From Sporisorium sorghi (Eukaryota > Basidiomycota > Ustilaginomycetes > Ustilaginales > Ustilaginaceae): a DNA stretch of 56,747 bases. Position 1 is the first letter of the stretch; the number at the start of each line of letters is the position of its first letter. Shown one piece after another: positions 13,530-56,747 of the stretch. Made by a program: the position numbers and the translations under genes. The notes beneath the pieces are model-generated. The model saw only the letters and a list, made by a program, of their open reading frames with translations. It did not search any database and had not been told where the DNA came from. Where the stretch lies: contig JALCCG010000137.1 in NCBI GenBank assembly GCA_023212695.1, forward strand, positions 1 through 56,747. Direction: 5' to 3'.

Positions 13530-13548
13530 GAAGTAAGCCTCCTGGAAG

Positions 13549-15090
13549 TTAGTCTGGGCGATTTAATGTCAAATACAGGTTGACTTGCCGCTGCACCTCG
13601 CCAATGATTTGGTCGAGTCCGCTGTCCCGTTGTTGCAATTGATACTGCAATACCGATGTCTCCACGTCGGACACCAATCCGTATTCAATAGAACGCCCCA
13701 GTTCCTCGTATAACTGGACTCGCTTCTCGATCTGCTTACTGATTGCATAATCACTGAGCAGCAAGCCCTTAAGCGGAGAATCCAAATTTATCGACAGCTC
13801 AGCAAACCTTGCCTCTTCTTGCCAAAAATCGCCTGGATATGTCTCGGTGGAACGGATAAATCGCGGATTCCATAGTGCCCATTGACCACCCCAATCCATA
13901 TAGTTGCTGGTCGATAGATTCAAATTGTCGGGGTATACAACCTGCTCCCCGTCCATTTCATAGGTCTTGCCTTCAATTCCGTAGATCACCAGGTCATACA
14001 GCTTCCGATCCGTCTCCATCATATCGAGAAACCTCAGAACCAGCGGAGCATGCTCCGAATTGCGGTTAATAGCAACAACGTTTGATGTCGGAGAGCGGTT
14101 GATATGTCTTTTATCCGGGTATACAAGCGACATCTGCTGCCTGAAATTAGGGTCCACAAATCCGGGATCGGATGCATATGCCCATTCATGGGAAGTAATC
14201 GTAAACAACACTTTGCCGTTACGCCATTGATCGGATCTGTCAGCCCGATCGATCAGTGAATCCGGACTCAAAATTTTACCCTCATACCACTTTTTGCTCA
14301 TAAATGCGGCTTCCTCATAGAATGGCTGCTGCTCGATGGCCTGCACTTTATAATCCGGGTCGTTCAGATAAATGCCCAATCCGTGAAAGCCCAAATCCAG
14401 CCATTCTTCCCGCACGATATAGAACGGGAGCGCCGTGGTCCGGGTCACATTGCTGTCCGGGTAGGCTTCCTTCAATTCATGCAAAAGGGTATCCACATCT
14501 TCAACCGTCTGTACCGAACCGGGTTCTCGATAAATCCCTGCCTTTTCTGCAAGATCTACGCGCCATCCGGCATAGGGACGTTCATTCATCTTGATGGACC
14601 ATGGCAGCCCGACGATATCCCCATTCATCGTGGCAGAACGCAAATTGCCATCCATCTCATATTTTCTGAACAGGTTGGGCGCATACTCCGGTAATAACTT
14701 ATCGAGTGCCATATAAGAGCCCCTTGAGGCCATCTGTCGGAAAGACGAATCTGTATCAAAATTAAGATCCCAGCGATCACCGGCCGCAGCCATCACCAGC
14801 AGCTTCTCCGGGTATTCCGTCCAGGGAATGAATTGAATCGAAAATTTCACGTTCAAGCCTTTGCTCTTTACATACTCGCTTACAGCAGACCACACCTCGT
14901 TGGTTGCCGCTTTCCTCTCTCCGCCAAAATATAATTTCAGCGTCACCTCCGGTTCATCCGTAGAAATGGACGAGGTGAAGAACTCGTGAAGATCCGTGCC
15001 GCGGTTGCCCATACATCCCGACAATGCTCCAGCCAGCACAAGACACACAAGCCCGAGTGGTATCCACCTCTTGAATCGGAAAAAGGACAT
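13549..15090 (-). CDS. Extracellular sugar-binding lipoprotein without adjacent permeases
   Basis: 513 residues. A lipoprotein signal peptide ends in a lipobox LSGC (Cys at residue 26). The mature part reads as a family 1 solute-binding protein (VTLKLYFGGERKAATNE, WDLNFDTDSSFRQMA, LDKLLPEYAPNL) with a C-terminal helical part of the LipO/DUF3502 kind. It is the first gene of the operon with the YesM/YesN pair and GH95, 19 bases before the regulator, and no permease follows. It may hand sugar to a transporter encoded elsewhere or act as a co-receptor for the kinase. The second idea is inference from gene order. Confidence 0.85.
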   Translation of the reverse strand: MSFFRFKRWIPLGLVCLVLAGALSGCMGNRGTDLHEFFTSSISTDEPEVTLKLYFGGERKAATNEVWSAVSEYVKSKGLNVKFSIQFIPWTEYPEKLLVMAAAGDRWDLNFDTDSSFRQMASRGSYMALDKLLPEYAPNLFRKYEMDGNLRSATMNGDIVGLPWSIKMNERPYAGWRVDLAEKAGIYREPGSVQTVEDVDTLLHELKEAYPDSNVTRTTALPFYIVREEWLDLGFHGLGIYLNDPDYKVQAIEQQPFYEEAAFMSKKWYEGKILSPDSLIDRADRSDQWRNGKVLFTITSHEWAYASDPGFVDPNFRQQMSLVYPDKRHINRSPTSNVVAINRNSEHAPLVLRFLDMMETDRKLYDLVIYGIEGKTYEMDGEQVVYPDNLNLSTSNYMDWGGQWALWNPRFIRSTETYPGDFWQEEARFAELSINLDSPLKGLLLSDYAISKQIEKRVQLYEELGRSIEYGLVSDVETSVLQYQLQQRDSGLDQIIGEVQRQVNLYLTLNRPD

Positions 15091-15556
15091 CGTAGTCTAA
15101 TCCCTTCTATTATGGAATTATTGATATCACCTTCACTTCAGGACTTGCCGTCAGTAACCGCCCAATTTCATTATTCAAATATACCCCCTTCCTTGTGGCC
15201 CAACAATGAGAAGAAATGAAATAAAACAGGGATATCTTATCCTCTTTTGTACCATGAAGAACAGCCCTTGATCTTCGGAAGCTCTCCAGCCTGAAGATAA
15301 AATCAAATCGGACCAAGCCCGTGCCAACTGAAATGGCAAGCTTGGTCCGATCCTTCGGGGACGGTCTTGTTTCCCGTACACCTGTTGGTACATCAACTAC
15401 ATCAACTATGATTCCATGATACCATTGCTTCTAACTGCTGCCGATTCCATTGTACTTCACCTAGCGGCCATGAGCATCGCCTGATTCGGGGTGCTCCTCA
15501 GAGGCCTGTGCGGTTTCGTTGTTTCCTTGAATTGTGTGGTTTGGTAATCGTTCAGG
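15091..15556. other. Intergenic region with promoter of the binding-protein operon
   Basis: No convincing gene. It holds the 5' leader of the minus-strand binding-protein gene (GAAGGG about 11 bases before its ATG) and, at 15309-15350, a long hairpin that probably ends the oxidoreductase transcript. The rest (15360-15556) shows no ORF with a ribosome site. Confidence 0.6.
15309..15350 (-). terminator. Long hairpin downstream of the oxidoreductase gene
   Basis: GGACCAAGC with TGCCA pairs with TGGCA and GCTTGGTCC, giving a stem of about 14 pairs. On the minus strand it is followed by a T-rich but interrupted run, so termination strength is uncertain. It lies about 200 bases after the stop codon. 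Confidence 0.6.
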
Positions 15557-16717
15557 TTATGAGCCATAACTGCCTGTTGTATCGAATAATACCGATTCGG
15601 CTGCCTTTTGCTTGGATGACGATATCCGCTTTTTCAATTCATGCAAATACAAATCCTCATCGATGGGCAGCTCAACCGTTTCACCGGTCCAACTGGATAA
15701 ATGCATCGCATTTGACAGCATTAAGCTGTGGATGCCTTCCTCACCGTCCGCAATAAGCGGCGTACCGTGCAGGATCGCCTTCGCAAACGAAGCGATGATG
15801 CCCATATGCTGAAGGTTATCCCCTTCCGTCGGCACGACGGATACTTCAACGGACGGGGTACTGAAGCCTTCCTTCGATTCGAAGCAATATTCCCGTTCGT
15901 TCTGGCTGAGCTTATGCAGCGTCAGCTTCCCGTGCTCACAGACGAGTTTTCCCATCTCCATCGTAATCTCAAGGCGGTTCGTTCCTGGCAGGTCTGCGGT
16001 GGTTGTGACAAATACACCCGTCGAGCCGTTCGGGAATTCCAGATATGCGGTTACGTCATCTTCCACCTCGATATCATGCCACTTACCTTCATGGCAGAAA
16101 GCGCGGACCATCGCAGGCATGCCGCAAATCCATTGAAGCAGGTCGATGTTATGAGGGCATTGATTGATGAGCACTCCTCCACCTTCGCCTGCCCAAGTTG
16201 CGCGCCAGCTGCCGGAATCATAATAGGCCTGTGTTCGGTACCAGTCCGTAATGATCCAGTTCACCCGCTTGATGGCACCAAGCTCCCCTCCTTGCACCAG
16301 ATCTCGCATCGTTCGGTACATCGGATTTGTCCGCTGGTTGAACATCATACTGAATACAACGCCGCTTTCCCGCGCCTTCTCATTCATCTCCCTTACTTGC
16401 TTCGTATACACGCCTGCCGGTTTTTCGCATAAGACGTGTAGGCCCCTATTGAAAGCTTGGATGGCGATTCTCGGATGATCGAAGTGCGGCGTGGCAATAA
16501 TGACTGCGTCACAAAGACCGCTCTCTATCAATTCGTCCGATCTCGTAAAATAACCGAAGGTCTCCGGCAAGTACGCCTTGGACGCCGCAAGGCGCCGCTC
16601 ATCCATATCCGAAATGGCGGTCAGTTCCACCTCCGGTATGGTGCCATGGATCAGCTTTTTGGCATGATCCGAGCCCATATTGCCCATTCCGATAATGCCG
16701 ATACGCAATTTTGTCAT
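15557..16717 (-). CDS. Gfo/Idh/MocA-family NAD(P)-dependent oxidoreductase
   Basis: 386 residues. The N-terminal Rossmann fold has GIIGMGNMGSDHAKKL (dinucleotide loop) and AISDMDERRL; the catalytic-type Lys is in HVLCEKPAGVYTKQ. The C-terminal substrate domain has INQCPHNIDLLQWICG, with the conserved His-Asn-Ile-Asp. Family members oxidise or isomerise sugars and inositols at a hydroxyl group. It lies 18 bases after the sugar isomerase and the two are surely co-transcribed, next to an AraC regulator, which points to a short sugar or cyclitol pathway. The exact substrate cannot be named. Confidence 0.92.
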   Translation of the reverse strand: MTKLRIGIIGMGNMGSDHAKKLIHGTIPEVELTAISDMDERRLAASKAYLPETFGYFTRSDELIESGLCDAVIIATPHFDHPRIAIQAFNRGLHVLCEKPAGVYTKQVREMNEKARESGVVFSMMFNQRTNPMYRTMRDLVQGGELGAIKRVNWIITDWYRTQAYYDSGSWRATWAGEGGGVLINQCPHNIDLLQWICGMPAMVRAFCHEGKWHDIEVEDDVTAYLEFPNGSTGVFVTTTADLPGTNRLEITMEMGKLVCEHGKLTLHKLSQNEREYCFESKEGFSTPSVEVSVVPTEGDNLQHMGIIASFAKAILHGTPLIADGEEGIHSLMLSNAMHLSSWTGETVELPIDEDLYLHELKKRISSSKQKAAESVLFDTTGSYGS

Positions 16718-46485: not shown

Positions 46486-46849
46486 GTTAAGGTAACCTCC
46501 ATTCTCTCTTTTTCGCACGAATACCAACCTTTCATCCCTGCAGCTTATGCTGGGTTATTTCTGCGTTCTAGTGGACCTTGATCCTCATCCATAATGGTTC
46601 ATCCCCCTATCATATCCGTTCAATAACGATAACCTCCAGCAACCCAAGTTGTTTGTTAAGCTGTTATACTTAATTAACGCTTCATGCCCCGTCGTAGTCT
46701 CGCTCTATCTTTCTTAGTCTGGTGCAACTCTTTTTGCCCCTTGTCACTTATTAAGAGAGAGGAAAAAACGTTGCTCTAGACCCACCCATAATCGGCTTGG
46801 TAATATAGTCAGGTACTATTCAGGGGCGTGCGGAAGGAGTCGGCTAGAT
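46486..46849. other. Intergenic region between the small membrane protein and the CDF exporter
   Basis: No sizeable gene. On the minus strand an ATG near 46593 has GGGGGA nine bases upstream and opens a 15-codon ORF (MDEDQGPLERRNNPA) that stops about 55 bases before the 71-residue gene's ribosome site; a small CCC..GGG hairpin overlaps its end. It could be a leader peptide or chance. On the plus strand the region must hold the CDF promoter, but no clear -35/-10 pair is seen. Confidence 0.35.
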
Positions 46850-47719
46850 GTGGAGCAACAACGTTTCAATGATTTAAAATTAGGTGAAAAAGGTGCCATT
46901 ATCAGTATCATTGCTTATATATGTTTATCTGCAATCAAACTGTTCATAGGCTATACCGCGAACTCCGAGGCCCTGCGGGCGGACGGATTAAATAACGCCA
47001 CGGACATCGTGGCCTCCATTGCAGTCTTGATCGGACTCCGATTGTCACAAAAACCGGCTGACCGGGATCACCCCTATGGACACTGGAAAGCGGAGACGGT
47101 GGCGTCCTTAATCGCTTCCTTTATTATGATGGCCGTAGGTATCCAAGTATTGTACGGGGCCATATCTTCCGTATTTGAAGGAAATCATGAGTCCCCTGAT
47201 CTCATATCCGCGTGGACCGGTATCTTCTGTGCCATGGTGATGTTTATGGTTTATCGCTATAACAAACGACTCGCAACGAAAATAAACAGTCAAGCCGTTA
47301 TGGCAGCCGCCAAGGATAACCTCTCGGATGCCTGGGTCAGTATCGGTACGGTTGTCGGTATTGTTGGCGCTCAATTTCATGTGCCATGGCTTGATCCGCT
47401 AACTGCCGTCCTGGTCGGCTTTCTGATATGCAAAACCGCATGGGATATCTTCCGCGATGCCTCTCACCATTTAACCGATGGATTCGATGAGAACATCATT
47501 AAGAGTTACAAAGAAACGGTGAAGCAGGTTTATGGAGTAAAGGGAGTCAAAGACATTCGTGCAAGAAATTATGGCAGCAACACAGTTGTCGATATCGTTA
47601 TTCTCGTAAAATCAAATCTGGATATCCGGGTTGCCCACGATATCTCGGATCAAGTGGAGCATGAGTTAAAAGAAACGCACGGCGTTTATGATGTTCATGT
47701 TCATATCGAACCGAATTAA
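46850..47719 (+). CDS. Cation diffusion facilitator exporter, probably manganese (MneP/MneS/MntE-like)
   Basis: 289 residues with six membrane helices. Helix 2 has RADGLNNATDIVAS and helix 5 KDNLSDAWVSIG: together N-x3-D and D-x3-D, the Asn-Asp-Asp-Asp metal site described for Mn-exporting CDF proteins such as MntE, rather than the His-Asp site of Zn exporters. DRDHPYGHWKAE follows helix 2. The C-terminal cytoplasmic domain ends in the usual VYDVHVHIEPN. GTG 46850 is ten bases after GGAAGGAG; an out-of-frame ATG two bases upstream opens only nine codons. Expelling excess Mn2+ is the likely role. Confidence 0.88.
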   Translation: MEQQRFNDLKLGEKGAIISIIAYICLSAIKLFIGYTANSEALRADGLNNATDIVASIAVLIGLRLSQKPADRDHPYGHWKAETVASLIASFIMMAVGIQVLYGAISSVFEGNHESPDLISAWTGIFCAMVMFMVYRYNKRLATKINSQAVMAAAKDNLSDAWVSIGTVVGIVGAQFHVPWLDPLTAVLVGFLICKTAWDIFRDASHHLTDGFDENIIKSYKETVKQVYGVKGVKDIRARNYGSNTVVDIVILVKSNLDIRVAHDISDQVEHELKETHGVYDVHVHIEPN

Positions 47720-47779: not shown

Positions 47780-48904
47780 CTATTTTGCGTCTTCGAGCGA
47801 TTTTTCAAGATCAAGCTTAAATTGCTCCAGCGTCTCATAACGATTGATGGTAACTCCCTCCTCGATGAGAAGTTTCTCCAGACCCGATTCCAGGCATAGA
47901 ACCGCTTCGTGAAGCGGAGCGAAATTGCCGGGATCCAGCACTGACACCAGATCCGGCAGCCCTTTGCTGAGATAAACCTGTTGATAGTTCAGACTTGAAT
48001 CTAATGAGGTCGGCCAATACCCATGTTCAGCGTAATAAATAAAACGGGCGATCTCATCTTGGGCACCAATCGACCAGAAGTAGGCGATTGGATAATTCCC
48101 AGTTTCACAAGCGGTCTTGAGTTTATCCAAAATCCCCTTCAACTCTTCAAAAAATCCCTTCATTCGGTCCGGATAAGAGGGCTGCCCCGTTAGCGCAGCT
48201 TTCTCCTCGATCAATAACGAAAGCATACTCTCGACGAGATGTTCGCATGCATCGCGAATGCTCTCTGCCGAATCTGCACACATGATGAAATCCATCTGTT
48301 CTTCCAAACGGGCGGGTTTTAGCGCAAAATTCATGATCTGGCTTTGGTTCTTGCCCCAGCCGCTCTTGAGATAGGTTCTATTGAGAAGTGCCAGACTCGA
48401 AAGCACCTGGATTAATACATCATGAGCTTCATTGCGGTAGTATGTGATGTTTCCCTCGCATGGCGCCTTCCCGAGCTTATACAAATGAAGATACACGGCA
48501 CGTAACTGTTCTTCGGCTTTATCAATAAACGACTGCTGGCTCGGAGGCATATCGATAATCGTTTGCTGCAGCTTCTTAAAGCGTGACAGATCCTCATCGC
48601 TCCGCGAATACAGCAGAATCGAGTCCGCGATGATGGAGGTGTTCGTTTCCTGATAGGTTGCCATGCGTTCGGCACGTTCCCAGCTGATCGGCCAGAAATC
48701 GAAGCTGATATCTTGCATAACAAACTGTATACTTGCTTGATAACCTTTTGGCGTGGCCGGTATGAAGAAAAAATCCAGATCCGATCGCTTGGTAGCCGTG
48801 CCCTGTGCGTATGATCCGTAATAGGCAACAATTGCGATATCCTGTGGATAATTATTTTTGATATGATCCACCAACGTTTCAGCGACGTCCATTATATGTA
48901 ACAC
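47780..48904 (-). CDS. Nucleotidyltransferase-domain protein (aminoglycoside nucleotidyltransferase-like)
   Basis: 374 residues. The N-terminal minimal nucleotidyltransferase core is IVAYYGSYAQGTATKRSDLD followed by FFF, the GS-x-A-x-G-x4-SDxD signature, with a third acidic strand in ISFDFWPISWERAER. The rest is helical and resembles no domain that I can name. GTG 48904 is eight bases after AAAGGGGG and starts just before the conserved part; the frame runs on to 49039 without a site. It may adenylylate a small molecule, but the fold is also used by non-resistance proteins. The C-terminus ends EKSLEDAK next to a shared terminator; a similar C-terminal stub lies at 49946. Confidence 0.8.
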   Translation of the reverse strand: MLHIMDVAETLVDHIKNNYPQDIAIVAYYGSYAQGTATKRSDLDFFFIPATPKGYQASIQFVMQDISFDFWPISWERAERMATYQETNTSIIADSILLYSRSDEDLSRFKKLQQTIIDMPPSQQSFIDKAEEQLRAVYLHLYKLGKAPCEGNITYYRNEAHDVLIQVLSSLALLNRTYLKSGWGKNQSQIMNFALKPARLEEQMDFIMCADSAESIRDACEHLVESMLSLLIEEKAALTGQPSYPDRMKGFFEELKGILDKLKTACETGNYPIAYFWSIGAQDEIARFIYYAEHGYWPTSLDSSLNYQQVYLSKGLPDLVSVLDPGNFAPLHEAVLCLESGLEKLLIEEGVTINRYETLEQFKLDLEKSLEDAK

Positions 48905-49041
48905 CAGGATTCCCCCTTTCAAATTCGAATGGTTTGCTCTATGATAACAGAACGAATTCGAACATCTTAAGGGAAACTTCAAGTATAGTTTAATTTTACA
49001 CTTCGTAATAAAAAGCCAATGAGCAAAATAAGCAGACATGT

Positions 49042-49090
49042 AAAAAAGAGTGATGCGTATTAGTCGAGCCTAATGTGCATCACTCTTTTA
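49042..49090 (-). terminator. Terminator of the hexapeptide acetyltransferase gene
   Basis: AAAAGAGTGATG and CATCACTCTTTT form a long stem with an internal TAG/CTA pairing; the minus strand continues into TTTTTT. Confidence 0.85.
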
Positions 49091-49145
49091 TGAACGCCTT
49101 AGCAAGGAGGATAAACCTCCTCCAACAGCGTGATCCTAGCGTACT

Positions 49146-49757
49146 TTAGTAGTCCTCCACGTCGAATTTCCTATCTTTATAATAATACGGTCGGTCCTCT
49201 TCCGTAATCGTTCTTAAGACTCTGCACGGATTCCCGACAGCGATCACGTTGTCCGGCAGGTCTTTGGTAACCACGCTGCCTGATCCGATGACTACGTTAT
49301 GACCGATGGTTACACCCGGATTAACGACCACGTTAGCACCTATCCAGACGCTGTCGCCTATGGTAATGGGGATCCCATACTCATATCCTGAGTTTCTTGA
49401 ATCCGGATGAATCGGATGTCCAGCCGTGATGATGGATACATTGGGGCCAAACATGACGTTATCCCCAATCGTCACCTTGCCTACATCCAGGATCGTACAA
49501 TTGAAGTTGGACATAAAGTTATTCCCAACCTCAATATTTTTGCCATAGTCACAATGAAAAGGCGGTAAAATATTAAGATTTGATCCGGCTTTTCCCAGAA
49601 TGCTTCTCATAATCTCATCTATTCTCTCCTTCTCCTCGGGAGGACATAGATTATATTCGCGGATCTTCTTCTTGTTCGCTAATTGTTCTTCAGCAAGTCC
49701 ATCCATCCATGCTTTATACGGAAGACCAGCCAGCATTCTCTCTTTATGGTTCATCAT
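49146..49757 (-). CDS. Maltose/galactoside O-acetyltransferase-like enzyme (hexapeptide repeat)
   Basis: 203 residues. The N-terminal maltose-acetyltransferase helix pair (KERMLAGLPYKAW, ANKKKIREYNL) precedes a left-handed beta-helix with hexapeptides GDNVMFGPNVSIITAGHPIH (catalytic His), IPITIGDSVWIGANVVVNPG and TIGHNVVIGSGSVVTKDLPD. VIAVGNPCRVLR is the end motif of Maa/LacA/NodL proteins, which acetylate sugars or thiogalactosides with acetyl-CoA. The frame opens at 49859, but AAGGAG with a usable start appears only near ATG 49757 (or 49754). Physiologically such enzymes detoxify non-metabolised sugars. A terminator follows. Confidence 0.92.
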   Translation of the reverse strand: MMNHKERMLAGLPYKAWMDGLAEEQLANKKKIREYNLCPPEEKERIDEIMRSILGKAGSNLNILPPFHCDYGKNIEVGNNFMSNFNCTILDVGKVTIGDNVMFGPNVSIITAGHPIHPDSRNSGYEYGIPITIGDSVWIGANVVVNPGVTIGHNVVIGSGSVVTKDLPDNVIAVGNPCRVLRTITEEDRPYYYKDRKFDVEDY

Positions 49758-49905
49758 TTCTTCTATAATCTCCTTTATGTAAATGATGTTGGTCCATGCT
49801 ATTGTACCAAATAAGCCGCTTGCGCTTAAATCCGCTGGATAAAGCGGTCTCCTCAACACGGTTATCCAGTATCAGCTTTCTTTGGTGGTGTCATGACCAA
49901 TGAAG

Positions 49906-49938
49906 AAGGTCCGGCCATATTTCTATTGGCCGGACCTT
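49906..49938 (-). terminator. Terminator-like hairpin, near-copy of the one at 47733
   Basis: AAGGTCCGGCC pairs with GGCCGGACCTT. The core GGTCCGGCC/GGCCGGACC is identical to that of the terminator at 47733-47779, with a different loop. Confidence 0.7.
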
Positions 49939-49945
49939 TCATCGT

Positions 49946-49984
49946 CTATTCTGTATTTTCGATCGACTTTAGCGCCGTGTCGAA
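49946..49984 (-). pseudogene. C-terminal stub of a second nucleotidyltransferase-like gene
   Basis: On the minus strand the last codons before TAG 49946-49948 read KSIENTE, against KSLEDAK at the end of the gene at 47780; 18 of 24 bases agree, and both are followed by the same hairpin core. Upstream the frame runs straight into repeat A of the cassette array, so only the tail of a former paralogue remains. The short match makes this tentative, but the shared terminator strengthens it. Confidence 0.5.
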
Positions 49985-50084
49985 GACTTAGCCTCGCAGG
50001 GTTATCTGCTGCTCATGCTTCTCCGAATAAGCTTCTGTAGATCAAGAGGCCTATATGTATCGATACGTTAATACTATGTTATCT
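49962..50084 (-). repeat. attC-like element A (left arm missing)
   Basis: Holds the conserved core GACTTAGCCTCGCAGGGTT, the ATCTGC/GTAGAT stem, a degenerate GATCAAGAGGCC segment and a right box GTTATCT at 50078-50084. The left box is missing: the element is joined to the stub of the nucleotidyltransferase-like gene. Confidence 0.65.
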
Positions 50085-50135
50085 ATAGCTTTACACTTCT
50101 CATGCCATTTCGACATTCACGATGTCTCATCAACT

Positions 50136-50312
50136 TTAAGGCCGAAAGCCTGAGTGGTTTGCCGGCAGTGAGTCTGTGCAGATGTCTCTGTTGTCTTTAA
50201 TTACAGGCAATACATAATCGAGAATTTCAGAAAATCTGTCAAATAAGTTTTCGTTAAATGTTACACCCCAGCATTCTTCCCCAGCTTTTTGAAATGAGGT
50301 CATTTTCATCAT
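50136..50312 (-). pseudogene. 58-codon ORF fragment in the first cassette
   Basis: An open stretch from ATG 50312 to TAA 50136 encodes MTSFQKAGEECWGV, LFDRFSEILDYVLPVIKD and a tail HSGFRP that already lies in repeat-like DNA (a left-arm remnant near 50117-50165). No ribosome site precedes the ATG and the region upstream is closed by TGA, so this is probably the rest of a decayed cassette gene. The family is not recognised. Confidence 0.4.
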
Positions 50313-50375
50313 TTTGTAAAGGAGGCTCGAGGATATTCAATTAGCTTTACTCCGACTTTCCTCATACCAGATGGT

Positions 50376-50409
50376 GAAATTGGCCCGCAGTGCGAATATC
50401 GTGTTATCC
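50376..50409 (-). repeat. Right-arm fragment of an attC-like element
   Basis: GCCCGCAGTGCGAATATC followed by box GTTATCC (50403-50409) is the right arm of the repeat without its inner hairpins. It lies 13 bases past the stop of the 162-residue cassette gene. Confidence 0.6.
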
Positions 50410-50422
50410 AAAATCCTCGTCT

Positions 50423-50911
50423 TCATTGAGACACCCTAAATATGTCTTTCATTATTGTTTGTCTAACTTTTTCACTTGATTGCTCTAACATTTGTACCAA
50501 CTGACTTGCATAATAAGATACGTGAGAAGAATCTATTTTAGATTCTTCATCAAAAAAATTTTCAGGGTATTCGGATCGGCTGATATCTTCTTCTCGAACT
50601 GCACCAAAATATTCAAATACATATTGAAATCCGGCATTCTCAATTAGTTCATCAACTACTTGTTCTATTCTTTCACGGCTTATATTATCTACAATGACTA
50701 CTGGAGAAGATCCGCACCAATATGCCCCGTTTAAACAATGTCCATTTTGCAAATAATCTTTTCTAATTGATTCAATACATTTGATGGTATAGAAATTTGA
50801 AATCCATTTTGTTGAATCAGGGAATGTGACGACTACATCCACCTGAGCATCTTCTACATCATCTGCCCATCCTTCTGCACCTATATGAATATGCCTTCTT
50901 TTTTCAAACAT
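50423..50911 (-). CDS. Cassette-borne hypothetical protein (162 residues)
   Basis: ATG 50911 follows AAGGAG by nine bases; the frame upstream to 51076 runs through repeat B and is not credible. The protein starts FEKRRHIHIGAEGW and contains VDVVVTFPDSTKWISNF, GAYWCGSSPVVIVDNISR and a long acidic-helical C-terminus (EEDISRSEYPENFFDEESK). No signal peptide or membrane helix. The alternating strand/helix pattern suggests a small soluble alpha/beta protein, perhaps immunity- or housekeeping-like; no family is recognised. It is markedly more AT-rich than the core genes, like the other cassette genes. Confidence 0.7.
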   Translation of the reverse strand: MFEKRRHIHIGAEGWADDVEDAQVDVVVTFPDSTKWISNFYTIKCIESIRKDYLQNGHCLNGAYWCGSSPVVIVDNISRERIEQVVDELIENAGFQYVFEYFGAVREEDISRSEYPENFFDEESKIDSSHVSYYASQLVQMLEQSSEKVRQTIMKDIFRVSQ

Positions 50912-50968
50912 AATTTCCACTCCTTGTCTTTTAACCCTCATACATATCAATCTTTTTTTGAAGGTATC

Positions 50969-51129
50969 ACATAACGTTCTTACATTCAATTCGAGAGGCT
51001 TAAAAGAGCGATCAGTGACTGGGTGCGCAGCACATAGCCTCGCAGGATTGTCTGACGATTCACTTCTTCGAATCACCTCTTGCAGACCAAGGAGCCGTTA
51101 GGGGACGCTGCGTGAATACTATGTTAGGC
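50969..51129 (-). repeat. attC-like element B (complete)
   Basis: Left box ACATAAC (50969-50975) followed by GTTCTTACATTCA; inner stem GAGAGGCT/AGCCTC; conserved TAGCCTCGCAGG; second stem GTCTG/CAGAC; ACCAAGG; right arm GCTGCGTGAATAC and right box GTTAGGC (51123-51129). Length 161 bases. Confidence 0.75.
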
Positions 51130-51164
51130 GGAGTTCAATTGGAATATCACAAAATTTGTTCGAT

Positions 51165-51278
51165 CTCGGCCGGCCGCGATGCGGTTGGGTGAATGGATGT
51201 GTCCCGGCGATCACTTCTCCGATTTTTCTTCCGGGACCGAGGCAGTTTGACTGCCTATGAGTGAACACATTGTTATAC
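51165..51278 (-). repeat. attC-like element C (left arm missing)
   Basis: Starts inside the first hairpin at CGGCCGCGATGCGGTT (compare CGGACCGCGACGCGGTT in element E), then stem GTCCCGG/CCGGGAC, ACCGAGG, hairpin GGCAGTTTGACTGCC, arm GAGTGAACAC and box GTTATAC (51272-51278). Only 35 bases and no gene separate it from element B, so a cassette seems to have been lost here. Confidence 0.7.
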
Positions 51279-51299
51279 GAAGATAACTACTTCCTTGTA

Positions 51300-51968
51300 T
51301 TACTCGCAATTCCATTGTTCTATAATTGTTTCGATTTCCAGCAAATCTCTTACTAGTCCATCATGTTCAAATTGATCTGTATAATAAGTATCCTCCTTCC
51401 AGATCCCCTTCATACCAGCATTCTTACTCGCAGTGACATCATTAATTGGATGATCACCTACATATACACATTCCTCAGGTAATACTTTCATCAAATCAGC
51501 TGCTCTAAGAAATATGGCTGGGTCAGGTTTTCTAAGGCCCTCTACCTCAGAGATCAATATCACCTCAAAGTACTTCTGTATTCCTAGAGCGTGGATATTA
51601 CTAGATTGAAAGTCACTGAATCCATTAGTGATCATCCCAAGCTTGTAATCTTGTTCTTTGAGCTTTTCAAGTATTTCAAAGGTATTTGGAAATGGTATAG
51701 CATACTTACAAAATCCATTTTTATAATCAGCTAATAACTCATTCCAATCAAGTTGCAGATCAAATTCCTTTATTAATTCCTGGTAGACCCTATCCTTCGA
51801 AACATATCCCCGATTATCCAGTTCAATAAAGCGATTAATATAGCTCTCCTTATCTATATTCTTAGCCTTCTTTATGATCCGTTCATATTGATCGACAATG
51901 AATTCATATAGTGAACTGTTACGGTTTAATATAGTACCATCAAGATCAAAGATAATTGATCGAATCAT
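51300..51968 (-). CDS. HAD-superfamily phosphatase (cassette gene)
   Basis: 222 residues. Motif I is IIFDLDGTILNR (nucleophile Asp8, acid Asp10), motif II LGMITNGFSD, motif III Lys in GLRKPDPAIFLRA, and motif IV VYVGDHPINDV. A helical cap (about 20-85) makes it a subfamily I HAD of the YjjG/PhnX-like type, which removes phosphate from nucleotides or small phosphates. It is AT-rich and sits between elements C and D, with only 22 bases between its stop and the box of C. No promoter of its own is evident. Confidence 0.92.
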   Translation of the reverse strand: MIRSIIFDLDGTILNRNSSLYEFIVDQYERIIKKAKNIDKESYINRFIELDNRGYVSKDRVYQELIKEFDLQLDWNELLADYKNGFCKYAIPFPNTFEILEKLKEQDYKLGMITNGFSDFQSSNIHALGIQKYFEVILISEVEGLRKPDPAIFLRAADLMKVLPEECVYVGDHPINDVTASKNAGMKGIWKEDTYYTDQFEHDGLVRDLLEIETIIEQWNCE

Positions 51969-52005
51969 ATGTTTTTCCGCCTTTCAATGCGTTTCAGTGA
52001 TGTTC

Positions 52006-52200
52006 GCCTAACGTTCCTGTATTCATGACGTCCCACCGACTCAAAGCGACGAATGTCGCCGGGTTCGATGTGCGCTTAGTCGGTGCGGATGTGCCCGGTG
52101 ATTGCGCTTCCCTGCAACTGAAATGCCTCACGGAATCCACTTCTAACTTGATGCCGGACCGAGGCAGCTTTTCTGCCGAAGCGTGAATATACTGTTATAC
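52006..52200 (-). repeat. attC-like element D (complete)
   Basis: Left box GCCTAAC (52006-52012) and GTTCCTGTATTCATGACG; stem CCGACT/AGTCGG; long second arm ending GCCGGACCGAGG; hairpin GGCAGCTTTTCTGCC; arm GAAGCGTGAATATAC; right box GTTATAC (52194-52200). Length 195 bases. Confidence 0.75.
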
Positions 52201-52405
52201 GATGTCCTTGTCTTTTAGAACTGCCACCAAATCTGCTCTTCACCTTTATTTCTTTGCCCTTTATATCAAAATTAATTTGATAGCTTTTTCTAAACAGGTT
52301 TAAATCTGTAATTCCTCTTTCTATTTCATCAAAGAAATCAAAGACTAATTCTTTTGCTTGTTCATTAGTTAATCTATCTTCTACCATAATTCTAATATTG
52401 ATCAT
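52076..52405 (-). pseudogene. Second half of a frameshifted cassette lipoprotein gene, running into element D
   Basis: The frame from ATG 52405 has 109 codons. The first 65 or so look like real protein (NIRIMVEDRLTNEQAKELVF, FDIKGKEIKVKSRFGG); the rest is translation of repeat D (TVYSRFGRKAASVRH onward) and has no biological look. No ribosome site precedes 52405. It begins five bases after the stop of the small lipoprotein ORF, in the next frame, and the residues upstream of its ATG in this frame (SSDG) continue the lipoprotein smoothly. A single indel probably split one gene. Confidence 0.5.
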
Positions 52406-52409
52406 ACCA

Positions 52410-52535
52410 TCACTTGAACTCGAACTCCGCTTTAACTAATGAATCTACTAATTGATTAAAATCGATTTCATTATTATTGTTACAGCCAACTGTAATAAGA
52501 GAAAATAAAATTATTGATACTATTAAATATCTCAT
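52410..52535 (-). CDS. Small lipoprotein ORF (41 residues), probable N-terminal part of a broken gene
   Basis: ATG 52535 is five bases after AAGGAG. It encodes a lipoprotein signal peptide (RYLIVSIILFSLITVGC, lipobox with Cys at residue 18) and a short mature part NNNNEIDFNQLVDSL ending in KAEFEFK. TGA at 52410-52412 is followed by the frame at 52076-52405. Either a genuine mini-lipoprotein or, more likely, the first part of a roughly 105-residue lipoprotein disrupted by a frameshift. Cassette gene between elements D and E. Confidence 0.55.
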   Translation of the reverse strand: MRYLIVSIILFSLITVGCNNNNEIDFNQLVDSLVKAEFEFK

Positions 52536-52562
52536 TTAATCTCCTTCTCTTAATGATTTTAC

Positions 52563-52732
52563 AACCCGAACCCGAGAACCTTAAGGCCCGAAGGGCCGGA
52601 CCGCGACGCGGTTAGGCTCGCAGGGTTTCCGCCAACGCTTCCCTGTACCTCTGAATTCTATCCGCAGTGAAATCCCTTCGCTCTTGGCGCACCAAGGGGC
52701 AAACGCCCCGCTGCGGGAATATGGTGTTATGT
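52563..52732 (-). repeat. attC-like element E (left arm degenerate)
   Basis: AACCCGAG/CTCGCAGGGTT stem with inner hairpins GGCCCGAAGGGCC and ACCGCGACGCGGT; second stem CGCCAA/TTGGCG; ACCAAGG; hairpin GGGGCAAACGCCCC; arm GCTGCGGGAATA; right box GTTATGT (52726-52732). The left box is not recognisable. Confidence 0.75.
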
Positions 52733-52766
52733 AATGTCTGCCTCATCTTCGAAAAACTTTCAAAAA

Positions 52767-53198
52767 TTATAAGTACTTCTTAAAGGCTTTACTCGAATCA
52801 CCGTCATAACATAACTTTGTATAGAACTCGTGTGCTTGCTTCCTCGAAGCTCCGCTGGTTAAAAAGACCTTAACGCAATCCCTTGAAATACACAGATCTT
52901 CAATATGCTTCATAATGAGCGATCCATAACCTTGACCTTGTCTGTTTCCAGATACAACTACACGTTCTACAACCCCAAAAGGTTGTGACTCTATCAACGC
53001 ATCTAAACATAGATGCAGATGTGCAGTTGCAACGATCTCTTGATCTACTTCGCAAATGAACAAGAAACTATTAGGATTTTGTTTAACTTCTTCTATTCTA
53101 TCTTCCAACACTTTTATTTTTGTGTTGTTTGGAAGCAATTCTTTATATAGTCGTTCAATCGCTCCGGCGTCCTTTGTTTCAGCTTCACGAATTATCAT
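52767..53198 (-). CDS. GNAT-family N-acetyltransferase (cassette gene)
   Basis: 143 residues. IREAETKDAGAIERLYKELL start, VERVVVSGNRQGQGYGSLIM with the Q/R-x-x-G-x-G acetyl-CoA loop, VFLTSGASRKQAHEFYTKL and GYDGDSS-like end. GAGGAG lies about six bases before ATG 53198. AT-rich, 34 bases from the box of element E. Its layout is like that of the GNAT gene at 55090 (same length, same RKQAHEFY/REQAHRFY helix), so two related acetyltransferases travel in the array. Such enzymes are frequent cargo of integron cassettes. The substrate is unknown. Confidence 0.9.
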   Translation of the reverse strand: MIIREAETKDAGAIERLYKELLPNNTKIKVLEDRIEEVKQNPNSFLFICEVDQEIVATAHLHLCLDALIESQPFGVVERVVVSGNRQGQGYGSLIMKHIEDLCISRDCVKVFLTSGASRKQAHEFYTKLCYDGDSSKAFKKYL

Positions 53199-53229
53199 TC
53201 ACATTCTCCTCTGTATTTAGGCTTATTTC

Positions 53230-53389
53230 ACATAACGTTTGTGTATTCACGAACCCGAGGGGATTAAAGGAGCAACGCGACCGGGTCCGACGGACTTAGC
53301 CTCGCAGGGTTGTGAGCTGATTCTACTTCCCTGACTACCTCATCTTGCGAACCAAGGGCGTAGTCCGCAGTGTAGATACTGTGTTAGGC
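53230..53389 (-). repeat. attC-like element F (complete)
   Basis: Left box ACATAAC (53230-53236) and GTTTGTGTATTCACGAACCC; stem CCCGAGG/CCTCGCAGGG with the core GACTTAGCCTCGCAGGGTT; ACCAAGGGCG; arm GCAGTGTAGATAC; right box GTTAGGC (53383-53389). Length 160 bases. Boxes fit the integron pattern NNNTAAC and GTTANNN on the minus strand. Confidence 0.78.
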
Positions 53390-53638
53390 GATGTATCTGC
53401 CTTCTTCGATTACACTTTTCTAATAATGAGCCCTTCTTCAAACTCCTCTATCTATGAAAACGTACAATAGTGAAATTACTACCAATGCCTTCACTAAATA
53501 TCTGATTTTGCAAAGATTGACCCTAATTCTCCATTTCTTTTTATATGTAGCCCAAAAAAGGGAAATGGATTATTTAGAACTTTCTATACTTTTGAAGGGG
53601 TCTTCTATGTAAAGGATGTAAATATGAAGTCAATATCA
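53390..53638. other. AT-rich spacer between element F and the aminopeptidase gene
   Basis: About 250 bases without an ORF, ribosome site or hairpin that I can support. It begins with GATGTATCTGCCTTCTTCG, resembling the sequence just inside the cassettes at elements E, G and H (GATGT..GCC.TCTTCG), so the cassette ends share a short conserved stretch beyond the box. Confidence 0.4.
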
Positions 53639-54754
53639 TCACTTTAAGTTTTCAGGGTTTAATCCTTTTAAAATATCAGGAATAAACATTCCATCTTTGC
53701 GGATTAATATATCATCAAACCATATCTCTCCACCGCCATATTCTGGCCTTTGGATATTAACAATATCCCAGTGAAGCTCGGACCAATTTTCATTTCCAGG
53801 TGAACTAACTGGAACACATCCAGGTGTAAAGTGAAAGCTTCCCCATATTTTTTCATCAAATAAAGTATCTTTCATAACATTCTCAATATATGGATTAAGA
53901 CCAATTCCAAATTCACCAAAATACCTCGATCCTTGATCCGTATTCAGTAATTTATTAATTCTTTCTGAATCATTTCCGGTAGCATGTATAATTTTGCCGT
54001 CCTTAATTTCAAAACGAATGTTCTCGTAAGTGAAGCCCTCTTTTAAAGAAGGTGTATTATACGAGATAACTCCGTTGACTGAATCCTTAACTGGCATTGT
54101 ATACACTTCTCCATCTGGAATGTTCATAATTCCTACGTCTTTAATAGAAGGCATGCCTTTAATCGAAAATGTTAACTCCGTTCCTATTCCTAAAATTCTT
54201 ACTTTATCTGTTCGATCCATTAATTCAACTAGATTATCCATAGCTACATCCATTTTTGAATAGTCCAGATTACATACATTAAAATATAAATTCTCAAAAT
54301 CCTCTGTTGACATGTTCGCCTGCTGTGCCATGGCATGATTGGGATAACGAAGAATACACCATTTTGTATGAGTGTAACGTCTGCCCTTGATCTGTTGTGA
54401 GTAATATTTTCTAAACAAGCCCATTTTCTCAGGAGAAACACCACTTAGTTCACTCAAATTCTCCCCAGCTCTAATAAGTATATAGGCTTGCATATCGTTT
54501 ACTCGATTTAGGTCGTAAGATGCCATTGCTATTAATTGTTCTTCAGTACAATCAATCAAAATCTCTCTTAATAACTCATGATTATTTATTAATAGAAATG
54601 GGACTCCACCTACGAGATAAGACTGCCTTACCAATTCTTTGGCCAAGGGAATTTCCAATCCATCCACCTCAATTAGTATTTTTTCCCCTCGTTGCAGCTT
54701 CACCGAATATTGAATAAGATTTTTAGCGAGTTGTTCAATTCTTGGATCTTTCAT
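53639..54754 (-). CDS. M29-family aminopeptidase (AmpS/PepS/AmpT type; cassette gene)
   Basis: 371 residues, normal length for the family. Key stretches: Glu in GIGTELTFSIKG, IPDGEVYTMPVKDSVNG with the metal-binding Glu, EFGIGLNPYI with the second Glu, HFTPGCVPVSSPGNENWSELH with the His ligand, and a final metal-site Asp in WFDDILIRKDG. These form the two-metal site of thermophilic aminopeptidases that trim N-terminal residues from peptides. AAGGAG lies eight bases before ATG 54754. AT-rich relative to the core genes. It is the largest gene of the array and lies between elements F and G. Confidence 0.92.
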   Translation of the reverse strand: MKDPRIEQLAKNLIQYSVKLQRGEKILIEVDGLEIPLAKELVRQSYLVGGVPFLLINNHELLREILIDCTEEQLIAMASYDLNRVNDMQAYILIRAGENLSELSGVSPEKMGLFRKYYSQQIKGRRYTHTKWCILRYPNHAMAQQANMSTEDFENLYFNVCNLDYSKMDVAMDNLVELMDRTDKVRILGIGTELTFSIKGMPSIKDVGIMNIPDGEVYTMPVKDSVNGVISYNTPSLKEGFTYENIRFEIKDGKIIHATGNDSERINKLLNTDQGSRYFGEFGIGLNPYIENVMKDTLFDEKIWGSFHFTPGCVPVSSPGNENWSELHWDIVNIQRPEYGGGEIWFDDILIRKDGMFIPDILKGLNPENLK

Positions 54755-54847
54755 TGTTAGTCTCCTTCAGTACTTCATTATATTTGTTGTTCATATTATT
54801 GCTGATAGTATTTGGATACATGTAGATGTTTATCATACAATAATTTC

Positions 54848-55038
54848 GTCTAACGTTATGGCATTTACGAACCCTCACTGGCTTAAGCAGCCAGTCGATC
54901 GAGCGCAACGATCGGTCTGCCGGGTCGAAGACTTAGCCAGTGCAGGGTTGTCCCCTGAGTATGCTCCCCTGCTTCCACCTCGGGGGGGGGGGACCGAGGG
55001 ACGCGGCAGCAGACCGATGCATGAATATGGTGTTATCT
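54848..55038 (-). repeat. attC-like element G (complete, with an 11-G run)
   Basis: Left box GTCTAAC (54848-54854), arm ATGGCATTTACGAACCC; stem CTCACTGGCT/AGCCAGTG with inner CGATCG pair and the core GACTTAGCCAGTGCAGGGTT; second stem GTCCCC/GGGGAC made from an 11-G run (54982-54992); arm GATGCATGAATATG; right box GTTATCT (55032-55038). Length 191 bases. Confidence 0.75.
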
Positions 55039-55089
55039 GATGTTCTTGCCATCTTCGAAATTGCTGAGAGCACTTTAGTATTTAACAAA

Positions 55090-55524
55090 TCAGATTCGTT
55101 TAATAAATCCACGCTTAGTGCCCTCATATCCAATTGATTCATAAAATCTATGGGCTTGTTCACGATTTTTACTAGAAGCTAAGATTATATAAGAGCATAG
55201 GTTTTCCATAGCAAAATCCTCGAGTGCATTCATGAGTTTCTTACCAATTCCACTTCCCTGGTACACAGATGAAACAACTACATTTTCTACAAGCAAGTAT
55301 GGCTGACACTCTCCTACAATATCTGGACAAACAATGCCCATGGCTGTTCCAACTACCTTTTCCTCTAAACATGCTACTGCAACATAGTAGTTTGGTTGCT
55401 TATGTAATAGGTCTAACTGATATTGGATCTTTTCAATGTTAGATCTCGTTCCAATAAACTCAACGAACAATTCAGACAACTCAAATGCGTCATCTTTTTT
55501 TGCCATTCTGACTTTTATGTCCAC
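55090..55524 (-). CDS. GNAT-family N-acetyltransferase (cassette gene)
   Basis: 144 residues. VENVVVSSVYQGSGIGKKLM carries the acetyl-CoA loop (Q-x-S-G-I-G), followed by YIILASSKNREQAHRFYESI and GYEGTKRGF. GTG 55524 is eight bases after GGAG. Same organisation as the GNAT at 52767 and probably a distant paralogue with different specificity. It lies 51 bases from the box of element G and 40 from that of element H. AT-rich. Confidence 0.9.
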   Translation of the reverse strand: MDIKVRMAKKDDAFELSELFVEFIGTRSNIEKIQYQLDLLHKQPNYYVAVACLEEKVVGTAMGIVCPDIVGECQPYLLVENVVVSSVYQGSGIGKKLMNALEDFAMENLCSYIILASSKNREQAHRFYESIGYEGTKRGFIKRI

Positions 55525-55563
55525 GCCTTCAGCTCCTATGGTTTGTAATCTTGCAAGAATTTC

Positions 55564-55709
55564 CGATAACGTTCTTTGTATTTACGAAGCGACCCAGCCT
55601 TAGATAGCTCCTATCTTAGGCCGGGTCGTATGTCGTCTGAGTTTCTTCCATGAATATACATCTGACGACCAAGAGGCGAAAGCCCCGCAGCGTGAATGCG
55701 ATGTTATTT
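55564..55709 (-). repeat. attC-like element H (complete)
   Basis: Left box CGATAAC (55564-55570), GTTCTTTGTATTTACGAAGC; hairpin CGACCCAGCCT..AGGCCGGGTCG with inner TAGATAG/TATCTTA; stem GTCGTC/GACGAC; ACCAAGAGGCGAAAGCC; arm GCAGCGTGAATGCG; right box GTTATTT (55703-55709). The TAA inside the right box is also the stop codon of the next gene. Confidence 0.78.
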
Positions 55710-56250
55710 GATGTTCATGCCTTCATCGAATTCCTCAGAAATGCGTATGTGATTCTTTATTATCCTCAACATTTCTCTTCTTATGATTCCACTGAAAAAC
55801 CCAATTACAAACCAGTATATTTTAAACTTAATTCTCGCTCCCTTTGATGTTGATACAACTCTTGTTGTTGTACTTACATTCAATTTCTGATTTATTCTGT
55901 CAAAATCTATTCGAAAGTTCCATCCGATTTTCACAAAATCTGCTTCATTAAAGTTGATGAATTCCAAACGTGATACTCTCTTCAGATTACCGGTAGGTTT
56001 CCATGGTTGGGCAATCAGACCAATGACGAGTTCATCTCTGCCTTCCTGCAGCAAATTGAATCCAACATCAATAAATTTCTTAATAGTAATCGTATTCGAA
56101 ACCTCTGATAAGAAAAAGAGTCTTTATTATCACTGATTTACTAAAATCAATCGAATATAAGATTGATATACTCGGAGAACTGGAGCAATTTAATGCAGCG
56201 GTATTCTCCTTGGTAACATCCCACAACGGCAAATAATGATCTAAAAGCAT
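55704..56250 (-). pseudogene. Frameshifted SRPBCC-like hypothetical gene (cassette gene)
   Basis: Two frames make one recognisable protein. The first begins at ATG 56250, eight bases after GGGGAG, with LLDHYLPLWDVTKENT and VIIKTLFLIRG, then stops at a TAA near 56080. The second picks up around 56095 with TITIKKFIDVGFNLLQEGRD and continues GLIAQPWKPTGNLKRVS, FVKIGWNFRIDFD and FFSGIIRREMLRIIK to the TAA in element H. This order recalls a family of SRPBCC-type small proteins of about 180 residues. The total, 547 bases, is one base out of frame, so one base is extra or two are missing. Function unknown. Confidence 0.65.
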
Positions 56251-56287
56251 CTTGTTATCTCCCCAAATTTAGTCATACATGAATTTC

Positions 56288-56420
56288 CGATAACCTTCTT
56301 GTATTCACGAAACGCCCCAGCTTTAGATAGCTCTTATCTTAGGCTGGCAATTGTTGACTGAGCTTCTTCCACGATTATACATCTGTCAACCAAGGGGTGA
56401 TAGTCCTGTAGCAAGATCAG
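56288..56420 (-). repeat. attC-like element I (right arm degenerate)
   Basis: Left box CGATAAC (56288-56294), CTTCTTGTATTCACGAAACG; hairpin CCAGCTTTAGATAG..TTATCTTAGGCTGG; stem GTTGAC/GTCAAC; ACCAAGGGGTGATAGTCC. The right arm and box have decayed (GTAGCAAGATCAG). The GTTGAC/GTCAAC stem replaces GTCGTC/GACGAC of element H, with pairing kept. Confidence 0.68.
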
Positions 56421-56524
56421 CTTCTAGATTTCCTTCAACTAAACAATATCATACAAATTTAAAAATAATGGACTCTTTATAATTCATATCCTATAATCCT
56501 TTTTCAAGTATCCTACACGCTTTG

Positions 56525-56747
56525 TTATTCGAAACAATTAGATAACTTTAAATATTCATGTTTCAAAATACTCATCAATATACGATCGACATATTGACCA
56601 TTTTTATAGACTTCGTCTCTTAGTATGCCATCCTTCTTGAAACCAGCCTTTTCATAACTCCGAATAGCACCAGGATTATCAGCGTCTACAGTCAAATACA
56701 CTTTATGAAGGTTTAAACGCTCGAACGCAAAATCCAGAACAACACTT
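56525..56747 (-). CDS. GNAT-family N-acetyltransferase, partial (5' end outside the window)
   Basis: The open frame enters from the right edge and stops at TAA 56525-56527, giving 73 C-terminal residues. LDFAFERLNLHKVYLTVDAD, NPGAIRSYEKAGFKKDG and LRDEVYKNGQYVDRILMSIL are the standard end of RimJ/RimL-type acetyltransferases (N-P-x-A-I-x-x-Y-E-K-x-G-F motif). AT-rich like the other cassette genes and on the same strand, so it is probably the next cassette of the array. Confidence 0.88.
   Translation of the reverse strand, partial: SVVLDFAFERLNLHKVYLTVDADNPGAIRSYEKAGFKKDGILRDEVYKNGQYVDRILMSILKHEYLKLSNCFE

Follow-up and report, generated by a model that had tools for sequence, protein, structure and literature searches.

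A putative integron-type cassette platform of Paenibacillus with a tyrosine recombinase lacking the IntI-specific segment

The superintegrons of Vibrio are large, sedentary chromosomal integrons with tens of cassettes in a single orientation, many genes of unknown function, and turnover of cassettes between strains. The system described here resembles them in array size, orientation, unknown genes and turnover, but differs in phylum, recombinase and site architecture. It was encountered at one end of a 56,747-bp contig (JALCCG010000137.1, hereafter the window, which is the entire contig C47) in the mixed 23-Mb assembly deposited for Sporisorium sorghi (GCA_023212695.1, G000), where an initial annotation, made from the sequence alone, had noticed structured repeats alternating with short genes of the same strand and had likened them to an integron cassette array. 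According to the analysis presented below, the window very probably holds the recombinase-distal part of a chromosomal cassette platform of integron type, which belongs to a close relative of P. glucanolyticus within Paenibacillus and is composed of an Xer/IntI-like recombinase without the I2 segment, an attI site, and one-gene cassettes with folded sites.

In PMC9668308, an additional IntI-specific domain is named as defining of integron integrases. PMC7790495 calls this I2 domain necessary, and credits its helix, which docks extrahelical attC bases, with the gain of single-strand recombination. The IntegronFinder 2.0 survey (PMC9024848) lists a single complete integron of Firmicutes, that of Limnochorda pilosa, and a few clusters of attC sites without an integrase (CALINs). 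In Treponema-type integrons with co-directional intI (the 'reverse' order), the integrase gene is transcribed toward attI and the cassettes (PMC3607928), as the recombinase gene is here; in the spirochaete genome G525 the array likewise lies downstream of IntI. XerA, XerC and XerD, known with dif or pdif modules, have the fold, the catalytic residues and the absence of I2 in common with the Paenibacillus recombinase, which differs from them in its extra N-terminal domain, its own attI and its dedicated cassette array. No published account of Paenibacillus cassette arrays of this kind was found in the open-licence literature searched.

Array, recombinase and attI

A covariance model of the site (R1) was built from five sites of the window and seven sites of a second contig of the same assembly (C197). 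Since RNAalifold gave just five pairs on the underlying mixed-length alignment (A1), R1 is in effect a sequence profile; site structure was therefore judged one site at a time, and an alignment of 25 short sites was set aside for its misaligned hairpins. At E ≤ 0.1, R1 gave 11 matches in the window, and ten of these also pass E ≤ 0.005; five had been used in R1 and six are independent. All are confined to positions 49,937–56,431 of the minus strand, and the rest of the window has no match. In other genomes, R1 matches reach an E-value of 5e-41, which rules out chance, and the array in the window is confirmed as real. The site layout is as initially described: on the coding strand, NNNTAAC stands by the gene stop, TATTCACG/CGTGAATA form the inner arms, and GTTANNN lies at the opposite end of the site. 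The window search against Rfam gave no match at gathering scores, and membership of the site in an Rfam family was rejected on this ground.

A search of the assembly for integron integrases returned a 373-amino-acid (aa) tyrosine recombinase on contig C197, scoring below the family cut-off. Downstream of it, on the same strand, lie seven sites of the window type with small genes between them. Over 6.1 kb, contig C197 matches the recombinase-bearing region of P. glucanolyticus NBRC 15330 (L017, L090) at 98.3% identity, and the last 1.77 kb of the window are 98.4% identical to the start of the NBRC 15330 array contig, at its end away from the recombinase. In addition, the window flank 46,692–47,717 shows 85% identity to the sequence lying just past the final array sites in Paenibacillus sp. 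EZ-K15 (L083). The window therefore most likely represents the terminal part of a platform of this kind, remote from the recombinase, and the two contigs presumably come from one genome. Because the window contig ends at position 56,747, its array runs off the recombinase-proximal end; the remark that no integrase is in view is correct for the window, and the recombinase is presumed to lie beyond. Taken alone, the window resembles a CALIN, as do parts of other genomes; it differs in that its contig ends, and in that a platform of the same type is found on C197 and in relatives.

In C197 and related genomes, the whole unit consists of a tyrosine recombinase, an attI-like site, and then cassettes (4–47 sites in the stretches covered) in a single orientation. 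Four of the five recombinase-bearing Paenibacillus records have a continuing contig, and all four carry sites directly downstream. Among 30 recombinase loci (two of them in the same genomes as the five records), a site was found within 1.5 kb in 22, always downstream and on the same strand. No site upstream or on the opposite strand was found in 45 oriented sequences (40 distinct loci, mostly represented by 1.5-kb flanks). Judging from these loci, the sites evidently follow the recombinase in one orientation.

The attI junction was defined as the best match to the flank of the first site among all GTTA positions in the interval. In 30 of 31 independent arrays, the distance from the recombinase match to this junction is 82–260 bp, and at least 10 of 14 positions match in 29 of the 31; ten further sequences of the 45 have no site in the stretch covered. 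A conserved block precedes the junction in 30 arrays, with the consensus TTcacGAAgTtCg.AAA.a, then about 15–20 bases, TtTTt..GAAGTTCGTaAAtAAGAc and GTTA. In two 60-base steps before the GTTA, C197 and P. glucanolyticus show identities of 0.95 and 0.85, and after it of 0.38 and 0.30. The two contigs thus carry one and the same platform, but their first cassettes differ, and the break between them falls exactly on the predicted boundary of attI and GTTA.

The recombinase has its best NCBIfam score with NF040815 (XerA/integron integrase; 224 bits versus a cut-off of 220), while TIGR02249 gave 203 bits versus a cut-off of 265, in two stretches that skip profile positions 173–232. In an alignment of 30 proteins, the IntI-specific (I2) segment is absent from all 26 close relatives and present in all four IntIs; the distance from landmark to landmark is 32 residues in the C197 protein and in five relatives from other phyla, versus 63 in seven IntIs. 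Residues R226, K251, H316, R319, H342 and Y351, which we take to be the catalytic residues of a tyrosine recombinase, are invariant in the 30 proteins. Canonical IntI identity was rejected because of the missing segment and the TIGR02249 score. The initial proposal of a recombinase at an array end is therefore borne out as to a tyrosine recombinase heading such arrays, and not as to the IntI type. The closest solved structure, both by sequence and by predicted fold (mean predicted local distance difference test score, pLDDT, 84.7; predicted template modelling score, pTM, 0.54), is IntI4. In a tree of 49 rows, the recombinases of Paenibacillaceae form one clade (100/99) and the sampled IntIs, mostly of spirochaetes and narrow in sampling, form another (100/100); the mutual order of the two clades is weak, as are the deep branches (91/84, 82/44), and several rows sit on long branches. 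By eye, the N-terminal domain (residues 1–60 of P0001, alpha/beta in the predicted model) looks common to the Paenibacillus recombinase, Treponema-type IntIs, and related recombinases of Bacteroidota and Spirochaetia.

Cassettes as units, and the fold of their sites

Twelve arrays with 253 sites were compared. Both boxes are present in 191 sites, the other 62 being left out of the same-site comparison, and 190 cassettes were testable. Site orientation is uniform within each array (253 of 253 sites), and the longest frame lies on the strand of the site in 143 of 162 intervals (15 have it on the opposite strand, and four have no frame of 60 aa).

In canonical integrons, the R'' box matches the 5' end of its own cassette, since the two meet in the free circle. 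In the present arrays, the start of a cassette complements the flank of the site belonging to it at a mean of 10.71 of the 16 positions after GTTA (190 cassettes). The corresponding means are 6.10 when the two ends of a single site are compared (n = 191) and 5.83 when starts and flanks from elsewhere in the same array are paired (n = 5151). Shuffling of the starts within arrays, repeated 5000 times, gave 6.14 (standard deviation, 0.14; largest value, 6.62), which places the own-end match at a z of 33, and for 173 of the 190 cassettes the own start is the best match in the array, ties included. The match falls into two blocks, at positions 4–6 and 11–17, split by a nearly fixed mismatch at position 10 (GAAA versus GATG). 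In the control, which was one canonical IntI array (spirochaete genome G525; 9 sites, 8 cassettes), the first block matches (0.96) and positions 11–17 are at background (0.21); therefore, as far as one control array tells, the second arm appears to be peculiar to the Paenibacillus system. By DNA folding, the predicted circle junction exceeds the integrated site in stability by 7.0 kcal/mol on average and is the more stable of the two in 154 of 162 cassettes; a random cassette start brings no gain in stability. The own-end match is weaker in the window, where six cassettes score 12, 10, 10, 9, 8 and 6 of 16. Overall, the end comparisons indicate that the cassettes are units spanning from GTTA to GTTA.

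Comparison of arrays from different genomes yielded 83 directed cassette matches, and 28 distinct cassette pairs have an identity of 88% or more across at least 90% of the body. Cassettes 1 and 2 of the window, equivalent to cassettes 28 and 29 of P. glucanolyticus, stand side by side in either array; they may represent plain inheritance and were not counted as evidence of exchange. Among the remaining 26 pairs, no two are neighbours in both arrays: for example, cassettes 4, 6 and 21 of EZ-K15 correspond to cassettes 6, 40 and 44 of genome G233 (98.0, 99.4 and 97.6% identity), and window cassette 4 corresponds to cassette 30 of G233. As such cassettes are nearly identical between species, they are likely to have been exchanged in the recent past. 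In ungapped comparison without the two contiguous pairs, identity at the 5' boundary (25 pairs) amounts to 0.87 over the 20 bases just inside it and to 0.31–0.38 at 21–60 bases outside; beyond the 3' boundary (23 pairs), it is 0.36 at +10 to +19 and 0.29–0.30 at +20 to +59. Since all site ends resemble one another, part of the step in identity right at the boundary is background common to the sites. These comparisons show cassettes of 88–99% identity that occupy different positions from species to species and whose homology stops at GTTA. Exchange of whole cassettes with breaks at the GTTA box, as the initial annotation had anticipated, is thus what genome comparison returned, and not the purely vertical decay that it had named as the contrary outcome.

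On the bottom strand, an outer stem of at least five pairs is formed in 156 of the 191 sites, with three hairpins inside it in 122 of these. The mean folding z is −3.5, and the bottom strand is the stabler one in 136 of 191 sites. The three-hairpin form was found in 124 of 191 sites, as opposed to 441 of 3820 shuffles of the interior with the ends kept; the outer-stem window in this test was two bases wider, hence 124 rather than 122. The L stem runs uninterrupted for at least 8 bp in 105 of 191 sites. All nine control sites have an extra L'' base at the canonical place, as against six of the 191 sites here. In 63 of the 191, the best alignment of the L stem contains a gap, which weighs against a wholly bulge-free reading of the sites; in 39 of these, the gap corresponds to an additional L' base on the inner side of the stem, which might be the equivalent of the extrahelical base of canonical attC. 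The joint absence of I2 and of the canonical docking base fits the contact described in PMC7790495.

In summary of the features that characterize canonical integrons, the Paenibacillus system has the recombinase at the head of the array, attI, the R''-L''...L'-R' layout with the GTTA box (common to its sites and those of G525), the match between the R box and its own cassette, and cassette turnover; the I2 domain and the canonical extrahelical bases in the L arms are missing. With its I2-less recombinase, its bulge-poor sites of three hairpins and its second complementary arm at positions 11–17, it is not a canonical integron.

Distribution, and features of the window

The survey covered 394 genomes of the family of P. 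glucanolyticus (G005), with sites counted at E ≤ 1e-6 and seven candidates scored per genome. Sites are present in 318 of the 394 genomes, so that the initial statement that such arrays are scarcely known in Paenibacillus-type bacteria does not describe their frequency: they are far from rare. The recombinase was found at E ≤ 1e-50 in 138 genomes; sites accompany it in 137 of the 138, versus 181 of the 256 others (Fisher p 5e-15, no correction for relatedness). In a sample of 299 genomes from the class, 36 have sites; 13 of these lie outside the family set, and seven of the 13 have a recombinase match at E ≤ 1e-40. The most sites in one stretch is 47, and one genome has at least 62, also on contigs lacking the recombinase. 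More diverged recombinases, service in trans and relic arrays are candidate explanations of sites without a recombinase.

The recombinase relatives comprise the five Paenibacillus records and five of Spirochaetia, Bacteroidota and Gracilimonas. With R1, no window-type sites were found at the five non-Paenibacillus loci, nor in the four of their genomes that were searched (G006–G009, those of L018 and L020–L022), and a direct-repeat search of L018 and L020–L022 (Spirochaetia, Bacteroidota, Balneolota) found no array of the window kind. In the plasmids of PLSDB, only distant recombinase relatives were found, all below 60% identity. In Gracilimonas, a 72-bp repeat (L022:4485–4556 and 15918–15989; 90% identical) brackets a region with a recombinase relative, which is possibly another kind of mobile unit.

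All features of the window array lie on the minus strand. The attC-like site closest to the unseen recombinase (56,284–56,431; R1 70.4 bits, ends by eye) has kept its R' box and has a degraded R'' end. The five complete sites, all in the R1 training set, are located at 55,560–55,714 (119 bits), 54,844–55,043 (125 bits), 53,226–53,394 (156 bits), 52,002–52,205 (116 bits) and 50,965–51,134 (131 bits). The R' end is lost at 52,544–52,737 (51 bits) and 51,145–51,283 (24.8 bits), both with ends set by eye. A degraded site at 50,249–50,414 (16.2 bits, E 0.005) has kept its R''/L'' end, and the distal-most site (49,937–50,089; 51 bits, ends by eye) has a degraded R' box; altogether, one end is lost in five window sites. 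The weakest match (50,096–50,215; 11.5 bits, E 0.098) is a fragment at best.

In the cargo of the window, Pfam recognizes two complete GNATs, a HAD hydrolase and an M29 aminopeptidase, with three further proteins left unmatched. Starting from the contig end, the 3' part of a GNAT-like gene (56,525–56,747; open frame of 73 aa, family by eye) is truncated at that end. It is followed by a gene for a 116-aa protein without a Pfam match (55,704–56,054), the cassette of which is 97.6% identical to cassette 28 of the NBRC 15330 array, and by a gene for a 144-aa GNAT acetyltransferase (55,090–55,524; PF00583), in a cassette 99.6% identical to P. glucanolyticus cassette 29; these are the two cassettes that adjoin in both arrays. 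Further genes code for the M29 aminopeptidase (53,639–54,754; PF02073), a second GNAT acetyltransferase (52,767–53,198; PF00583; cassette 96% identical to cassette 30 of G233), a 109-aa protein without a Pfam match, with the stop codon within the site (52,076–52,405), the HAD-like hydrolase (51,300–51,968; PF13419), and an unknown protein of 172 aa from the first ATG (50,423–50,941; the longer frame, 50,423–51,076, has no Pfam match either). Hence, the cargo initially listed was recovered as to the HAD phosphatase, the aminopeptidase, the small unknown proteins and two GNATs; the third GNAT is the fragment cut by the contig end. The distal flank (47,780–49,859) codes for a nucleotidyltransferase (weak KNTase-like matches) and a hexapeptide acetyltransferase.

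On C197, chromosome-type genes are located between parts of the array (12226–15146). Further site-like sequences with 1–3 mismatches were noted in the assembly at C197:842 and 2219 and at C417:121901 and 127554 (a reversed-pattern control gave 4 matches versus 16). One cassette of C197 (L010:7229–7512) consists mostly of about seven 39-bp tandem repeats, and similar sequence is found in two cassettes of P. radicibacter (L014); it is possibly a regulatory or RNA cassette. At L069:506–1184, three 105-bp sites follow one another at a regular spacing of 287 bp, and the cassettes are too short for a usual gene. At one locus (L010), 11 promoter-like matches were counted versus 7.7 expected, and the search for SOS boxes gave 4 matches versus 3.0 expected at this locus, which is chance level.

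Mechanism, alternatives and significance

We infer that cassettes are recombined by the platform recombinase. The enzyme would excise a cassette, usually one gene with one folded attC-like site, as a circle by exchange at two GTTA boxes, and the circle would be inserted at attI, about 80–260 bp behind the recombinase gene, the array growing head-to-tail away from the recombinase. The site would be recombined as a single strand folded into a stem that bears three hairpins. As for the second complementary arm, it would be whole only in the circle and split upon insertion; the circle may thus be a better substrate than the integrated site, and capture could be favoured.

The main rival of this integron mechanism is ordinary double-strand exchange by an Xer-like enzyme, in the manner of Xer/dif modules, between short duplex cores, the fold being merely architectural or regulatory. 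The absence of I2 from all 26 close recombinases aligned speaks for it, as do the L stems, which run uninterrupted for at least 8 bp in more than half of the sites and carry the canonical bulge in only six. In PMC7790495 and PMC4792948, single-strand recombination is tied to I2, and a dif-like hairpin without extrahelical bases is said to mimic duplex DNA, which also favours duplex exchange. Nevertheless, the three-hairpin fold is retained far more often than in shuffled sites, complementary cassette ends that meet only in the circle have no evident role in duplex exchange, and no site of opposite orientation was seen in the arrays examined; we consider this explanation possible, though improbable. 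A different origin, in which the recombinase is a canonical IntI after loss of I2 and the system an offshoot of ordinary integrons, would agree with IntI4 as the nearest solved structure and with the N-terminal domain and gene order held in common with Treponema-type integrons. It is unlikely, given that the Paenibacillaceae recombinases and the sampled IntIs fall into separate clades (with the weak deep branches and narrow IntI sampling mentioned above) and that the segment is likewise missing in the five relatives belonging to other phyla.

Two other explanations fit the data poorly. A canonical IntI might act in trans on the sites, with the neighbouring Xer-like recombinase being incidental; the R and L box layout, similar to that of canonical attC, is compatible with this. 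It is very unlikely, since the mixed assembly has no match above the TIGR02249 cut-off, the canonical bulge seen in every control site is found in six of 191 sites here, and the recombinase adjoins attI and is accompanied by sites in nearly every genome that has it. A non-mobile structured repeat of the repetitive extragenic palindromic (REP) or miniature inverted-repeat transposable element (MITE) type, spread between genes with the gene arrangement being secondary, had been offered as an alternative in the initial annotation. The large number of sites per genome, their presence away from the recombinase contig and the degradation of many of them would suit such a repeat. The single orientation within each array, the predominance of the longest frame on the strand of the site, interspecies homology that takes in the gene and stops at the interval boundary, and own-end complementarity that spans the gene contradict it; it was rejected as extremely unlikely. 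The integron-like cassette reading, on the other hand, has been upheld by the recombinase at array heads, the own-end complementarity and the exchange at GTTA; neither of the two outcomes that the initial annotation had named as refuting it, decay without exchange and a repeat that no recombinase ever accompanies, was borne out.

Several points weigh against an integron-type platform as proposed. Sites are present in the 181 family genomes without a recombinase at E ≤ 1e-50, and the recombinase is in pieces with stops in NBRC 15330 (G005:C32:30267–31382) and EZ-K15 (G003:C12:157133–158247), these being among several copies that look interrupted. Therefore, many arrays may be inactive or served in trans, and, as a broken recombinase can head a large array, large arrays may persist after loss of the enzyme. 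The attI junction is unclear in two of the 31 arrays (8 matches in L064; not found in L071), and the co-occurrence statistics ignore relatedness. Since every site shares GTTA, sequence comparison locates the break to this box and no more finely. The system lacks both known determinants of single-strand exchange in integrons, I2 and the canonical extrahelical base, and may therefore do without the folded-strand step. Finally, excision, circles and recombination are deduced from sequence comparison.

On balance, we lean slightly toward a second class of integrons spread across Paenibacillaceae, which would stem from a pre-I2 stage or from a separate recruitment of an Xer-like recombinase. Besides its I2-less integrase and three-hairpin sites, this class would use the second arm, present only in the circle, as a cue in place of the extrahelical bases, driving capture over loss.

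Whichever route its cassettes take, this is a widespread and, by all appearances, recently exchanging cassette system without I2, a part of the enzyme regarded as necessary until now, and without the canonical base. The origin of integrons becomes testable thereby: either folded-site recombination needs neither I2 nor the base, or cassettes move otherwise. Surveys that demand the IntI domain (PMC9668308) would not call this recombinase an IntI, and the frequency of the sites in the family contrasts with the near-absence of integrons in the standard survey of Firmicutes (PMC9024848). A large reservoir of cassette genes is thus opened in a common bacterial family.

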